NCBI GenBank assembly: GCA_015063185.1
Contig: SUSY01000005.1
Span: 1 to 64,000, forward strand
From: Thermoplasmata archaeon
Lineage (GTDB): Archaea; Thermoplasmatota; Thermoplasmata; Methanomassiliicoccales; Methanomethylophilaceae
DNA: 64,000 bases
Direction of reading: 5' to 3'
The notes below the pieces were generated by a model. The model ran no database searches and was not told where the DNA came from. It worked only from the letters and a program-made list of their open reading frames with translations. Of the stretch, positions 27,379-32,924 are shown one piece after another (positions within the stretch are counted from its first letter, which is position 1; every line of letters starts with the position of its first letter). The translations under genes and the position numbers were made by a program.

Positions 27379-27978
27379 TTGATCAGATTCATCATCCTCG
27401 GACACCGTGCACACACCACTGCGGACTTCAAACTCGAGGACATCTGTGGTGGAGCTGGAAGACTCGATATCCTCACCAGATGTGTCAACTCCGCGTTCTT
27501 CCTCAGTCATGACCTCAGAAGGGATGTAGAACTGTACCTCGTCATGCTCGGCGGGGAGGATGCACCCAAGACCATAAGGTTCGACGGATCGATCATGAAG
27601 TATCTCAACCCCGACGAGAGAAGCACGGCATCCCTCATCAGGAACGCGTTATTGAAGAAACTCGAACCGGACAGAGAGATCATCTCATCCCCCGGGGTGT
27701 TCGTCTCCAGGAAATCCTTCGAACAGTTGATGAAGGAGCTCTCCGAAGATTGCAGGTTCATCTACCTCAGGGAAAACGGAGAGGATGTCAGGAAGTACGA
27801 GTTCCCCAAGAATCCATGTTACATATTGGGTGATGACCGCGACCCCACCGAGGAGGAGGAGGCCATAATGGCGAAATATCCCTTCGATACGATCTGTCTG
27901 GGGCCGGTCAGCCTACATGCCAACCATTGCATGGTCATCGTCCACAACGAGATGGACAGAAGAAAGGCAGGTGAATGA
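27379..27978 (+). CDS. trmY: tRNA (pseudouridine-54 N1)-methyltransferase
   Basis: A 199-residue SPOUT-fold enzyme of the COG1901 family that methylates pseudouridine 54 in the T loop of archaeal tRNAs using SAM. Characteristic parts are the N-terminal FIILGHRAHTTADF, the LGGEDAPKTIRFDG segment and the C-terminal trefoil-knot region CYILGDDRDPT and TICLGPVSLHANHCMVIVHNEMD. The start is a TTG at 27379, four bases after the srp54 stop, supported by GGAG seven bases upstream and by homology beginning immediately after. Confidence 0.92.
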   Translation: MIRFIILGHRAHTTADFKLEDICGGAGRLDILTRCVNSAFFLSHDLRRDVELYLVMLGGEDAPKTIRFDGSIMKYLNPDERSTASLIRNALLKKLEPDREIISSPGVFVSRKSFEQLMKELSEDCRFIYLRENGEDVRKYEFPKNPCYILGDDRDPTEEEEAIMAKYPFDTICLGPVSLHANHCMVIVHNEMDRRKAGE

Positions 27979-27980
27979 TA

Positions 27981-28181
27981 ATGGCCGACGACATAGAAAG
28001 GATACCTCAGCACAGACATTGCATGAACTGCAACAAGGCATTCGTCGGAGAGGGCAGGTACTGCACCCCCGAATGCGAGAACGGAAGGGTCACGGAACTC
28101 AAGAAGAAGAGGAACGGACTCCTCATCATCTGGGGAATCGCAGTCGCTATCATGGTGGTGGCCATAGTATGTTCACTGTGA
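27981..28181 (+). CDS. DUF2116-type zinc-ribbon membrane protein
   Basis: A 66-residue protein with a treble-clef or zinc-ribbon segment HCMNCNKAFVGEGRYCTPEC (His/Cys ligands at about 14-33), a charged linker EVTELKKKRNG-like, and one C-terminal transmembrane helix (LLIIWGIAVAIMVVAIVCSL). It matches the archaeal DUF2116 family, function unknown. An alternative ATG at 27975 overlaps the trmY stop, but aggtga is better spaced for 27981. It overlaps the start of the next gene by 13 bases. Confidence 0.85.
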   Translation: MADDIERIPQHRHCMNCNKAFVGEGRYCTPECENGRVTELKKKRNGLLIIWGIAVAIMVVAIVCSL

Positions 28182-29125
28182 AAGCGGCCGTTGCAGGTAC
28201 GTTCAACGTCCTCCACGATGGTCACAAGGCACTCCTCGATCATGCCATGTGGATCGCGGACGAACTCTACATCGGCATCACATCCGATAAAATGGCATCC
28301 GAATCCAGGGACGAGGTGGTACCATTCTATCTCAGGAAGAAGGCCGTCGAGGAATACGTCGCCTCCAAGAACGAAGTGGCCATCGTCTTCCAGATCGACG
28401 ACATATACGGCCCTCCGGAGATCATGGACAGCATCGACACCCTCGTGGTATCCGAGGAGACACAGGACAACGGTGAGCTCGTATCGAGGATGAGAGTCAA
28501 ACGTGGACTCAGCCCTATGAAGATCTCTGTGGTCAACCTGGTATCGGACAGTCAGGGAAACAAGCTCAGTGCCACCGATATCATGAGAGGGGACATGTCC
28601 AGGGATGGGAAGGAGGATGCCGTCCGTATCGCGGTGGGTTCTGCCAACCGTGTCAAGGTCGAAGCCGTCAGGGATGTCATGGAATCAATCTATGGTTCCG
28701 TCAGAATCTATGCCGAGGACGTGAAGAGCGGTGTTCCCGAACAACCATTCGGGGACGAGACCCATGAAGGAGCAGTCAACAGGGCTAAGGCCGCCATCGG
28801 TGACAGGGATCTTTCCGTAGGCATCGAAGCAGGCGTCTTCGAGATGTATGGGGAGCTCATCGACATTCAACACTGCGCCATCCTTGACAAGAACGGAAGG
28901 ATCACCGTCGGAATGGGATCCGGTTTCGCATATCCAAAAGAGATCGCTGACCTCGTCAAAAGGGGCCTCACCGTAGGACAGGCGGTGGACAGAATCTACG
29001 ACGGAGAGTCCATAGGACACTCCGAAGGTGCCATTGGATACCTCAGCGGAGGAAGGTTGGATAGAAAGGATCTGACCAAACAGTCCGTCCTTGCAGCCAT
29101 GATCCCGAGGCTCGAAGATGATTGA
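28169..29125 (+). CDS. Fusion: archaeal phosphopantetheine adenylyltransferase + inosine/xanthosine triphosphatase (YjjX-type)
   Basis: A 318-residue two-domain protein. Residues 1-145 are an archaeal CoaD/PPAT nucleotidyltransferase: AGTFNVLHDGHKALLDHA carries the HxGH motif, DELYIGITSDKM and NKLSATDIMRGD complete the active site; it adenylylates 4'-phosphopantetheine in CoA synthesis. Residues about 153-318 are a YjjX/COG1986 NTPase (VGSANRVKVEAVRDVM, FGDETHEGAVNRAKAA, SVGIEAGVFEMYG, SEGAIGYLSGGRLDR) that would cleave non-canonical ITP/XTP. The two functions are not consecutive in one pathway, so the fusion may reflect co-expression or a shared nucleotide role. Start at 28169 overlaps the previous stop. 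Confidence 0.88.
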   Translation: MFTVKAAVAGTFNVLHDGHKALLDHAMWIADELYIGITSDKMASESRDEVVPFYLRKKAVEEYVASKNEVAIVFQIDDIYGPPEIMDSIDTLVVSEETQDNGELVSRMRVKRGLSPMKISVVNLVSDSQGNKLSATDIMRGDMSRDGKEDAVRIAVGSANRVKVEAVRDVMESIYGSVRIYAEDVKSGVPEQPFGDETHEGAVNRAKAAIGDRDLSVGIEAGVFEMYGELIDIQHCAILDKNGRITVGMGSGFAYPKEIADLVKRGLTVGQAVDRIYDGESIGHSEGAIGYLSGGRLDRKDLTKQSVLAAMIPRLEDD

Positions 29126-30650
29126 GTTCGTTCCAGACGTCAACTCACCATACCTGATCGATGAATGCAAGATCCGTGGCAATGCGGACCTCGTGGCGAT
29201 ACCGGAGAACGAATCCGAACTATCATCCCTATTGAAAGATGCGGATTCCAAAGGTACATCCGTGACCATAAGCGGACTCCGTACAGGATTGTGCGGAGGG
29301 AGCGTACCGTTCGGTGGCATCCTCGTATCCATGGAAAGATTCTCGTCCATGATCGGATTGGGGAAGGATTCGAAAGGATACTTCCTCAGAACCGAACCGT
29401 GTGTGACCATCGATAAGATAGTGCGGACGACACAACTGAAACGCATCGATGGACTTATCGATATAACACCCAATGCATGCTCCGATTTCCTTTCCGACAA
29501 ACGCAAGTACTTCTATCCTGTCGATCCAACCGAAATGAATGGCTCCATTGGTGGAAACATATCCGCCAACGCATCAGGAGCAAGGACATTTAGATACGGT
29601 CCCACCAGGAATTGGGTCAGATCCATCAGACTGATGTTGGCCAATGGAACAGTAATTAGAATCACTAGGGGCGAACACTTCGCAAAGGGAAGACATTTCA
29701 ATATCACGATAGATGATACACACCTTGAATTCGACATCCCGGATTATGAGTTCAATCGGTCGGTCAAGAATGCCGCAGGATTGTACTGTCATGAGGACAT
29801 GGACCTGATAGACTTGGTCATCGGTTCCGAAGGCATACTGGGCACCATTATCGAAGCCGACCTTTACCTTACAGAATGGCATCCTCTGATCTCGAACATT
29901 ATCTTCATGCCTGACGATGCTTCCGCATTGTCCCTGATCGATTCGCTAAGATACGACAATATCGTTGAACCGGAGTTCATAGAATACTTCGATACCGGTT
30001 CCATAGACCTTATCAGGAGAACGTGTATCACGGATCCCACTATCCTAAGGCCCCCTAAGAAGAGATGTACGGCCGTTTTCATGGACATGTCTTTGGATAA
30101 CGATGTCGACAATAGATTCCAAAGGCTCTTCGAACTCGTCAGGGCCAATGGAGGTGACCCATCCGACAGTTGGACAGGATACGACCAGAACGACAGAAAA
30201 CGTATGTTCGCCTTCCGTCACTGTGTACCCAAATCCATCTTTGATTATGTCGCGTCCCTCAAGGACGGCATCCCTAAGATCAACAAGATGGGCACGGATA
30301 TGTCAGTTCCCGAGAAACATAACCGTGAAATGATGTCATACTACGATATGGTTCTGAAGGAAGCAGGATTGGAATACGTCATCTTCGGTCATATGGGCAA
30401 CTGCCATCCCCATGTGGAGATCATACTCAAGGACATGGATGATCTCGACAAGGCAAGATCTGCATATGCTATCCTTGCCGAACACGCATTCGAACTGGGA
30501 GGATCCCCGAGTGCCGAACATGGGATCGGTAAGTTGAAACGTGATTACATCGGGATGATGTACGGCACCGACGGCATCGAGGGGATCAGGGGTGTGAAGA
30601 AAGCGTTCGACCCCAACCTTATAATGAACAGGGGGAACATGATTGACTGA
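29118..30650 (+). CDS. FAD-linked oxidase (GlcD/D-lactate dehydrogenase type)
   Basis: A 510-residue FAD-binding PCMH-type oxidoreductase that oxidises 2-hydroxy acids. The FAD segment includes TSVTISGLRTGLCGGSVPFG and VDPTEMNGSIGGNISANASG; the C-terminal FAD-oxidase domain ends with LGGSPSAEHGIGKLKRDY, the usual SAEHGIG substrate/flavin motif. It overlaps the preceding gene by eight bases and is followed directly by etfB and etfA. That context is diagnostic for electron-bifurcating or ETF-coupled lactate/glycolate dehydrogenases (LctBCD type). The electron acceptor is thus probably the neighbouring ETF; the exact hydroxy acid is not known. Confidence 0.88.
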   Translation: MIEFVPDVNSPYLIDECKIRGNADLVAIPENESELSSLLKDADSKGTSVTISGLRTGLCGGSVPFGGILVSMERFSSMIGLGKDSKGYFLRTEPCVTIDKIVRTTQLKRIDGLIDITPNACSDFLSDKRKYFYPVDPTEMNGSIGGNISANASGARTFRYGPTRNWVRSIRLMLANGTVIRITRGEHFAKGRHFNITIDDTHLEFDIPDYEFNRSVKNAAGLYCHEDMDLIDLVIGSEGILGTIIEADLYLTEWHPLISNIIFMPDDASALSLIDSLRYDNIVEPEFIEYFDTGSIDLIRRTCITDPTILRPPKKRCTAVFMDMSLDNDVDNRFQRLFELVRANGGDPSDSWTGYDQNDRKRMFAFRHCVPKSIFDYVASLKDGIPKINKMGTDMSVPEKHNREMMSYYDMVLKEAGLEYVIFGHMGNCHPHVEIILKDMDDLDKARSAYAILAEHAFELGGSPSAEHGIGKLKRDYIGMMYGTDGIEGIRGVKKAFDPNLIMNRGNMID

Positions 30651-30651
30651 G

Positions 30652-31422
30652 ATGAGAGTGATCGTACTTGTCAAACAGGTGCCGGATCCGAATCTGGTTA
30701 CCATCTCGGAGAACGGACACCTGCAGAGGGAGAATGTACCATCAATGACCGACCCGTTCGGCATGATGGCCCTGCAACATGCACTTAGGTTGAAAAGAGA
30801 GCTCGGTGCACATGTCACTGCAGTATCGATGGGACCTATGCATGCAGAGGAGATGTTGAGGAGGTGTCTTGAGTACGGTGCGGATGAAGCTGTACTGCTC
30901 TCGGACAAGGCATTCGCAGGTGCGGACACATTGGCGACCGCAAGGACCCTGGGTTGCTATCTCAGAAGCAGGAAGTTCGATTACATATTCTGTGGTATGC
31001 AAGCCACCGACGGTGACACCGCACAGCTTCCCCCGGAACTGTCCGCCGTTATGGGACTTCAGATCTACTCGTACGTATCCAAGATGGAACTCTCGAACAC
31101 CATCCGGATGACCCAGATCTATGAGGATAAGAGCTATGTTGTAGAAACGTGCACGCCCGCTGTGGTCACGTTCCTCCGTCCCCCCGAAGAACAGATACCA
31201 TTGCCCAGCATGACGGATTTCATCGAGGCTAGGAAGAAGGAGCTCACTGTACTCAACGCATGGATGGTTGGTGTACCCCCGGGATCGATGGGACTCAAAG
31301 GTTCAAGGACCCGTGTGGACAGGATCACAACGGTCGTCAAGGATAGGAAGGCCACCGAATTCATAGACGGGTCCGATTCCAAGAATGCTGCTTCCATCAT
31401 CATGTCGGAGGTGAAAGGATGA
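30652..31422 (+). CDS. etfB: Electron transfer flavoprotein, beta subunit
   Basis: A 256-residue EtfB: N-terminal VIVLVKQVPDPN, AVSMGPMHAEEMLRRCLEYG, FCGMQATDGDTAQLPPELSA and the late GLKGSRTRVDRI region. It holds AMP or, in bifurcating ETFs, a second FAD, and pairs with EtfA. I start at the ATG at 30652, where family homology begins; a TTG at 30643 overlapping the oxidase gene is possible and lies at a better distance from a GGGGG run. The stop overlaps etfA by four bases (ATGA). Confidence 0.92.
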   Translation: MRVIVLVKQVPDPNLVTISENGHLQRENVPSMTDPFGMMALQHALRLKRELGAHVTAVSMGPMHAEEMLRRCLEYGADEAVLLSDKAFAGADTLATARTLGCYLRSRKFDYIFCGMQATDGDTAQLPPELSAVMGLQIYSYVSKMELSNTIRMTQIYEDKSYVVETCTPAVVTFLRPPEEQIPLPSMTDFIEARKKELTVLNAWMVGVPPGSMGLKGSRTRVDRITTVVKDRKATEFIDGSDSKNAASIIMSEVKG

Positions 31423-32528
31423 GCGGATGCAATTGTTCCGGTTCATGCTCCTCCGGATCGTGTTCGAGTGGTTCCTGTTCATCTGGCTCATGCTCCGGAG
31501 GATCCTGTTCCTCCGGAAACTACGACAACACATTACCCCCAGGTATGCTTGCTGCATACAACCTCGACCAGGCCACTGCCGATGGCATCCTGGTATACAT
31601 CGAGACCGATGGAAAGTCCCTGCACCCTGCTGTCAAGGGCATCCTTGGAAAGGCAAGGGAACTGTCCAGCGGAAGGGTGTTCGGAATCATGTTCGCAGGC
31701 GTCGGCGGGAAATTACTCTATGACGAGATTTTCTCGTACGGAGTCGATACCCTATACCATATGAGGAACTCGTCCATAAAGGAGTTCCAACCAATCTCCT
31801 ACGCGGAGGCCATGGCCGACGTATCACATCGTGTCGGCCCTGCGTCGATACTCTTCGCAGCCACCCCGGAGGGAAGGGAACTGGCACCTTTAGTAGCAGC
31901 AAGATTGGGTGCGGGACTCACCGCAGACTGTACACAACTGGAGGCCGATGGTAGAACCCTGATAATGACCCGCCCCGCATTGGGCGGCAACATACTGGCG
32001 ACCATCAGATGTGACACATTCCCTCAGATGGCCACTGTAAGACCCGGTACATTCCCTGACCCGATACCCGAGGAATGCAGGAAAGGGACATCCTTCTCCA
32101 GACCATACAAGGCGATATCTGAGAAGACCATTGTTTCCAAGGACATCGTGGATCTCGGCGAGGATATCGGCAACGCACGCGTGCTCATCTCGTTAGGTAA
32201 CGGTATAAGGAACCGCTCCACAGTGGATCTGGCACATGATGTGGCCAGAAAGCTGGGGGCATCCGTATCATGTACAATGGCACTAGTGGATAAGGGATGG
32301 ATGCCATACTCCGCACAGGTAGGACAATCCGGAAGGACAGTGTCCCCTGACCTCTACGTCGCATTCGGGATATCCGGTTCGGTACAACATATGGCTGGAC
32401 TCAGAGCGAAGAGAGTGGTATCCGTCAACAAGGATAGGTCCGCTCCGCTGAACTCCATTGCGGATAAGGCGATAATCGGTGATGCGGACAGCATCCTGAG
32501 GGATCTCGCGAAATCACTTGAAGAGTGA
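31419..32528 (+). CDS. etfA: Electron transfer flavoprotein, alpha subunit with N-terminal Cys pentapeptide repeat
   Basis: A 369-residue EtfA. Residues from about 40 are the normal alpha subunit: N-terminal nucleotide-like domain, then the FAD domain SLGNGIRNRSTVDLAHDVAR, VSCTMALVDKGWMPYSAQVG, QSGRTVSPDLYVAFGISGSV, VSVNKDRSAPLNSIADKAI. It passes electrons between the FAD oxidase and a quinone, ferredoxin or other partner. Unusual is the first 33 residues, where Cys occurs at 4, 6, 10, 15, 20, 25 and 30 in a Ser/Gly-rich SCSSG repeat. Codons vary synonymously among the repeats, so the peptide rather than DNA expansion appears maintained. It could bind metal or an iron-sulfur cluster. Confidence 0.93.
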   Translation: MSGCNCSGSCSSGSCSSGSCSSGSCSGGSCSSGNYDNTLPPGMLAAYNLDQATADGILVYIETDGKSLHPAVKGILGKARELSSGRVFGIMFAGVGGKLLYDEIFSYGVDTLYHMRNSSIKEFQPISYAEAMADVSHRVGPASILFAATPEGRELAPLVAARLGAGLTADCTQLEADGRTLIMTRPALGGNILATIRCDTFPQMATVRPGTFPDPIPEECRKGTSFSRPYKAISEKTIVSKDIVDLGEDIGNARVLISLGNGIRNRSTVDLAHDVARKLGASVSCTMALVDKGWMPYSAQVGQSGRTVSPDLYVAFGISGSVQHMAGLRAKRVVSVNKDRSAPLNSIADKAIIGDADSILRDLAKSLEE

Positions 32529-32924
32529 TTTCACCTTATCGTAGACGACCGATGCATGACCGGATGGCTTGACGTCGTTCCAAGTGGAGACTACCTCTCC
32601 TTCCTTGGAGACCATGACGGTAGCCCTACCCTCCAGACCGCATGCCTTGACGAGAGTTTCATCCATATCGGAGAGGAGTTTTACCCTGAGGCCCTGATCG
32701 TCCATGACCTTACGAAGATCCGGACATTCGGCCTTGACGACCATCAATGTTACGATGTTACGGATCATCAGTTTCTGATAGATACTGTCGAAATCACAGA
32801 GTTCCTCCACCGATCCCTCTCCGAGATCGGGGATGAAACAGACGATCATCCTCATACCCTTGAGGAAGGACGAGTCCAAGGACTCCCCATTCTCATCATT
32901 AAGGACGAAGTCGGGAAACTGCAT
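32514..32924 (-). CDS. Peroxiredoxin-like (AhpC/TSA, BCP) protein lacking the peroxidatic Cys
   Basis: A 136-residue thioredoxin-fold protein of the BCP peroxiredoxin type (FPDFVLNDENGESL; LLSDMDETLVKACGL; ATVMVSKEGEVV). In place of the usual P-G-C-T-x-E-A-C the sequence is GEGSVEELC: the catalytic Cys position is Ser38, whereas the resolving-type Cys43 is kept. Normal peroxidase chemistry is therefore unlikely; regulatory or thiol-exchange roles are possible. It follows pheT by nine bases and converges with etfA, whose 3' end overlaps it by 15 bases. Confidence 0.8.
   Translation of the reverse strand: MQFPDFVLNDENGESLDSSFLKGMRMIVCFIPDLGEGSVEELCDFDSIYQKLMIRNIVTLMVVKAECPDLRKVMDDQGLRVKLLSDMDETLVKACGLEGRATVMVSKEGEVVSTWNDVKPSGHASVVYDKVKSLFK

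Follow-up and report, generated by a model that had tools for sequence, protein, structure and literature searches.

Electron-transfer flavoproteins (ETFs) are textbook flavoproteins, and in Methanomethylophilaceae, a family of gut methane-producing archaea, their EtfA subunit carries a cysteine-rich N-terminal tail. We describe this tail from positions 1 to 64,000 of contig SUSY01000005.1 (assembly GCA_015063185.1, Thermoplasmata archaeon), a stretch of 64,000 nucleotides hereafter called the window, and follow it through the family, where it is conserved, is under purifying selection and is retained through the stepwise loss of the rest of the ETF. In the window, etfA (31419..32528, + strand) is an open reading frame of 369 amino acids with an ATG start, matches LctC, CarE and Bcd-Etf in the Protein Data Bank (PDB), and comes third in a glcD-etfB-etfA operon whose genes overlap or nearly so.

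The first gene (29118..30650, +) encodes a GlcD-like, flavin adenine dinucleotide (FAD)-linked 2-hydroxyacid dehydrogenase of the D-lactate type (PF01565/PF02913); in the PDB it is matched best by LctD, from the lactate dehydrogenase-EtfAB complex of Acetobacterium woodii (7qh2_C, E=4.7e-26), and its His468 aligns with the catalytic His423 of LctD. EtfB (30652..31422, +; Pfam E=2e-29) matches bifurcating ETFs in the PDB (4kpu_B, 5ol2_B, 6fah_B, 7qh2_B) and, on a motif check, bears DGDTAQLPP from residue 120; a DGDTAQVGP-type motif has been described as a marker of the bifurcating FAD, and the role of LctD His423 is described in the same work (PMC9232219). The nicotinamide adenine dinucleotide (NAD) motif of the window EtfB reads DKAFAG, with K replacing the R of RXFXG, and its SPT position reads SRT; R-x-F-x-G is present in the EtfB of the sister species (G001) and of many family members, and S-x-T is usual at the SPT site. 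EtfA has Bcd-Etf (5ol2) as its best PDB match and LctC (7qh2) as the second best, and in the alignment to 7qh2_A its Arg185 corresponds to LctC Arg205, which contacts N5 of the bifurcating FAD (PMC9232219). Since the DGDTAQ motif, Arg185, His468 and the PDB matches agree, we read the core as LctBCD-type, with 7QH2 as the nearest relative of solved structure and with the adjoining glcD, the bifurcating-FAD motif of EtfB, Arg185 and a PF00766 domain all present as in Ldh-EtfAB complexes; judged from sequence, it is a 2-hydroxyacid dehydrogenase with a probably bifurcating ETF. Two differences stand beside this likeness: the window EtfB more closely resembles ETFs that lack a ferredoxin domain (4kpu, 5ol2), and where LctC has a ferredoxin domain with one [4Fe-4S] cluster (C(x)17CxxCxxC), the window EtfA has a 38-residue, predictedly disordered Cys/Ser/Gly tail instead.

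This tail comprises residues 1-38 (MSGCNCSGSCSSGSCSSGSCSSGSCSGGSCSSGNYDNT; 31419..31532, +), and is supported by translation, structure prediction and its presence in every family genome that has the gene. It is joined by the motif LPPGML (31533..31550, +), conserved in nearly all family members, short forms included, to ETF domain I (PF01012, residues 57-218; 31587..32072, +; Pfam E=2e-34), which is followed by the FAD-binding (shuttle) domain (PF00766, residues 249-328; 32163..32402, +; Pfam E=1.2e-29). An earlier, sequence-only reading of this DNA was thus right to place the tail ahead of a normal EtfA core, and the translated N-terminus, MSGCNCSGSCSSGSCSSGSCSSGSCSGGSCSSGNYDNTLPPGML, bears out the seven cysteines that it listed at positions 4, 6, 10, 15, 20, 25 and 30; elsewhere EtfA has only four (171, 198, 220, 285). 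The regular five-residue pattern that it described holds for Cys 10-30 only, because the spacings run 2, 4, 5, 5, 5, 5, and one of the repeat units is SCSGG. Neither a ferredoxin Pfam match nor a CxxCxxC motif occurs in the window tail, and AlphaFold2 assigns residues 1-38 predicted local distance difference test (pLDDT) scores <50, so that the segment is predicted to be intrinsically disordered.

Such a segment might have no function at all, as a neutral low-complexity expansion or the product of a wrong start codon, and the repeat number does differ between the window species (five units) and its sister (four). A true start near residue 38, which the sequence-only reading had named as a possible objection, is unsupported: the Shine-Dalgarno sequence GGAGGTG (31407..31413, +; the same in G001 and others), the overlap of the etfA ATG with the etfB stop (ATGA), typical of a coupled operon, and the identical start, Shine-Dalgarno and tail arrangement in G001 all agree on the upstream ATG and rule out a wrong start. 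When the five SC(S/G)(S/G)G units are compared codon by codon, 33 of the 50 comparisons show a synonymous difference and 4 a nonsynonymous one; the mean nucleotide identity is 0.67, and Tandem Repeats Finder reports no tandem array at the tail DNA. Because synonymous differences dominate between units and no array is detected, a recent DNA tandem duplication is ruled out and the repeat appears to be maintained as a peptide, as had been proposed from the codons; the ratios between species pairs given below agree. With clear start signals, family-wide presence, the strong synonymous excess and no DNA-level array against it, an origin without function is very improbable.

Conservation of the tail in Methanomethylophilaceae

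Our sample comprised 102 genomes of the family, 72 of them with an EtfA match, and every one of these 72 has a Gly/Ser/Cys N-terminal tail of 13-38 residues. Ser (28%), Gly (20%), Cys (18%) and Asp (10%) dominate its composition, His, aromatic and aliphatic residues are almost absent, and cysteine makes up 17.6% of the tail vs 1.6% of the remaining protein. Each tail holds 2 to 7 cysteines, mostly 3 or 4, at spacings of mostly 3 or 5, with CxxC in 62/72 and C-x4-C in 61/72; in a 32-row alignment the second tail cysteine is invariant and the first is conserved at >=90%. LPPGML follows nearly always, being replaced in genus g14 and appearing once each as LPPGI and LPPGMA. The alignment of EtfA N-termini that the sequence-only reading had proposed therefore gives a divided answer: the presence of cysteines is conserved and their spacing is not. 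The five-residue period falls away as a meaningful feature, since the (SCSSG)n array is limited to the window species and G001 while spacing and number vary across the family. Similar cysteine arrays arose independently in G096/G109 and in G065; those of C-x4-C type (loci L151:2833-3516, +, L124 and L126) read MGCDSGSCDSGSCDSGSCGSNRG in G065 and SGCSDGSCSSGSCSTGSCSS in G096.

Purifying selection is evident in 20 species pairs, which are not fully independent, so that the ratios are descriptive, with a uniform direction. In the pooled tails of full-length forms we counted 0.52 synonymous vs 0.06 nonsynonymous differences per site, and in those of short forms 0.43 vs 0.06, the rest of the short-form protein showing 0.50 vs 0.13; tail cysteines are identical in 78/79 aligned cases. 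The tail is also no general habit of the proteome, at least in the complete family genome G014, where a proteome scan found EtfA to be the only clear case of such an N-terminal tail; in the genome that the window comes from, etfA alone contains the exact CSSGSC(S)(S)-type pattern.

Three further observations concern individual family members. The etfA of G016 (L009:1492, +) has no ATG, GTG or TTG in the interval (TGA ACG GGT TGC) that separates the tail from the in-frame stop before it, reflecting either a sequencing error or an unusual start. A second partial EtfA match in G003 (C53:5-208, +; 76% identity to query residues 298-365), at a contig edge, may represent another copy of the gene or else a fragment left by assembly. 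Apparent C-terminal EtfA extensions in G113, G115 and G119 were considered as new domains and proved to be read-through into the antisense of the downstream gene.

Retention of the tail after loss of the ETF machinery

In 24 genomes of the family EtfA is short, at about 200-235 residues, or at 310-335 where a degenerate C-terminal stretch persists, as it does in genera g3 and g14. The FAD domain of EtfA is gone or degraded in all 24, glcD does not lie beside etfA, and EtfB has lost the bifurcating-FAD motif or is itself missing, while the motif is intact in nearly all full-length members. We searched for an FAD domain encoded elsewhere and found no PF00766 domain anywhere in 10 near-complete short-form genomes, 4 full-form controls being positive. 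Other glcD paralogues are retained in short-form genomes, and the glcD of this locus is gone. With the FAD domain, the motif, glcD and often EtfB missing, the short forms, to judge by their domain content, are not ETFs in function.

An intermediate state is seen at loci L162, L020, L163, L164 and L166, where an EtfB whose bifurcating-FAD motif is lost or altered and a short EtfA directly follow a CoaD/NTPase-like gene, the intervening glcD being lost. Reduction goes further in the solo tailed EtfAs: in g4 (L165:1188-1853, -; L150, L147, L149, L152, L153, L154), g12 (L155, L156) and g14 (L167, L168), EtfB, the FAD domain and glcD are all missing, and no ETF domain other than the tailed domain I was detected in or beside the locus. 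Searches with PF01012 found the tailed EtfA to be the single ETF domain in G029, G092, G094, G098 and G099 (g4) and in G018 and G027 (g14); in G062 and G069 (g12) it is the only one above chance, the second match being at noise level. EtfB thus went undetected in three genera, g4, g12 and g14, and none adjoins the gene, although a diverged EtfB may escape detection.

Short forms nest inside genera that also hold full forms, and a maximum-likelihood domain I tree requires 6 changes to account for them, of which well-supported branches force at least 5. The stripping of EtfA has therefore occurred five times or more, and on every occasion the tail was retained. For most short EtfAs, dN/dS (nonsynonymous to synonymous substitution) values of about 0.03-0.31 in pairs, open frames and conserved tails led us to reject the notion that they are pseudogenes. 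The predicted solo form folds as ETF domain I, with EtfA chains as its best fold-search matches and again a low AlphaFold2 pLDDT in the tail. One of its matches is Ta0212 of Thermoplasma acidophilum (3FET; Thermoplasmatota), likewise a short stand-alone 'EtfA-related protein', which differs in that the solved chain has about 165 residues and the fold similarity is modest (template modelling, TM, 0.47/0.6).

In the g4 solo forms all four cysteines and LPPGML are invariant, compared with 83/192 invariant columns elsewhere. Tail and LPPGML being the best-conserved block of the solo forms, and the tail surviving the loss of the catalytic parts, one might see in them a docking or assembly peptide, a short linear motif for a partner in which the cysteines act by shape or covalent tethering rather than by metal or redox chemistry. 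What is conserved, however, is cysteine content rather than a fixed sequence, and changing order and spacing would be unusual for a recognition motif; we consider this explanation distinctly unlikely.

Candidate functions of the tail

Outside the family, a ferredoxin domain occupies the tail's position in the EtfAs of two further families within this order, as it does in those of Heimdall/Lokiarchaeota and a few bacteria; most of the same-order and Heimdall/Lokiarchaeota proteins have glcD nearby, and most bacterial relatives have neither tail nor ferredoxin domain. The tailed EtfAs form one clade in 98% of bootstrap trees. We considered whether the tail is a ferredoxin-domain remnant; that of genus g14 (CxxCx5Cx3C) could be one, and the tree accommodates both a ferredoxin-bearing ancestry of the tail clade and an origin without one. 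A literature precedent for an N-terminal redox extension of EtfA in a bifurcating ETF is CarCDE (6FAH), whose dehydrogenase differs in being of the acyl-CoA type. Deletion of the ferredoxin domain abolishes bifurcation in LctC, whereas CarE still bifurcates without its own (PMC9232219).

The tail might accordingly be a plain replacement for that domain, ligating one iron-sulphur (Fe-S) cluster that, as in LctC, would carry electrons between the bifurcating FAD and a ferredoxin outside the complex. Its position and the gene trio match the ferredoxin-domain EtfAs just described, the bifurcating-FAD motif is intact in nearly all full-length members, and Arg185 is the equivalent of LctC Arg205. 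Against this, the tail persists without the bifurcating-FAD motif, the shuttle FAD domain, the dehydrogenase and EtfB, its spacing is variable with only two cysteines in some members, and CarE demonstrates that a ferredoxin domain is not always required. Pure replacement is, on balance, improbable. Because the tail outlasts the FAD domain and the dehydrogenase, and in some cases EtfB as well, its basic job should be independent of the ETF flavins, and a relay to the bifurcating FAD would not be its whole function even if it did replace a ferredoxin domain. The choice left by the sequence-only reading among metal or cluster carriage, redox sensing and docking is narrowed by this retention.

We tentatively favour, as an explanation with somewhat less than an even chance, that the tail is a thiol arm whose cysteines hold either a labile Fe-S cluster or a soft metal ion. 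Two to four tail cysteines at once would ligate the metal or cluster, and the tail would either deliver this to a partner or use it to pass electrons on to one; both the binding and the partner's identity are things we infer. In the window species, the (SCSSG)n array would then be an expanded tail with more ligands and, since bifurcating-FAD and shuttle-FAD features are still present there, the tail may in that organism also serve as an electron entry or exit point, like the ferredoxin domain of LctBCD. That a short N-terminal cysteine motif can bind metal is shown by the E. coli protein HypB, whose N-terminal CXXCGC, also ahead of a folded domain, binds Ni(II) tightly (PMC7055735); HypB is an unrelated protein with another motif and offers an analogy of mechanism only. 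With cysteine content kept and geometry not, almost no His and a minimum of two cysteines, a soft metal, a labile Fe-S cluster or a dithiol fits better than a fixed cluster.

Several findings weigh against metal or cluster binding. Spacing is too variable for one fixed cluster geometry; the two-cysteine tails of species G079 and G087 lie below the cluster minimum within one chain; the gene is absent from about 30/102 family genomes, which makes its function dispensable; and the solo genes stand in differing neighbourhoods, with no co-conserved neighbour that would suggest a metal client.

The main rival is a dithiol/disulphide arm, in which cysteine pairs would cycle between thiol and disulphide, either sensing the redox state or passing flavin electrons to a substrate that is itself a thiol or disulphide, by analogy with the flexible cysteine tails of some thioredoxin reductases. 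The minimum of two cysteines (G079, G087) suffices for a disulphide but is too low for a cluster, the prevailing pairs are CxxC and C-x4-C in a freely changing order, and Gly/Ser flexibility with predicted disorder would suit such an arm. So would a peroxiredoxin-like (AhpC/TSA) gene (32514-32924, -) that lies convergent with etfA downstream in the window and overlaps its 3' end by 15 bases, but this neighbour is not consistent beside other members. As the solo forms have no flavin as an electron source and the usual cysteine number is 3-4, we regard the dithiol arm as rather unlikely.

Other neighbours in the window are pheT, next after the peroxiredoxin-like gene on the same strand, and, upstream (27379-29125), two conserved genes identified by eye, the first TrmY-like and the second encoding a CoaD-like nucleotidyltransferase/NTPase fusion. 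The latter gene overlaps the glcD start, and in other genera it stays beside etfB/etfA even after glcD loss.

N-terminal ferredoxin domains on EtfA determine the bifurcation ability of some ETFs. A disordered thiol arm in that domain's place, surviving repeated ETF loss together with one ETF domain, points to a second job of EtfA, and the tail probably has its own function. The sequence-only reading knew of no equivalent of the cysteine-rich tail, and literature searches in an open-access library likewise brought up none, nor anything to the point on ETF in Methanomethylophilaceae; given the limits of that library, the absence is weak evidence. We see a real possibility, still short of probable, that domain I of EtfA, standing alone with its cysteine tail, is a new kind of protein for the transfer of metal, Fe-S or thiol. 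It would have arisen at least five times from a lactate dehydrogenase-type bifurcating ETF stripped of all its flavin parts, the second, non-ETF job pre-existing in the full complex. The complex itself is LctBCD-like but lacks the ferredoxin-domain feature of LctC, and the solo forms could go beyond a variant of a known ETF. Full complex, flavin-less EtfAB and solo EtfA, all present in close species, constitute a natural deletion series for finding EtfA's second job.
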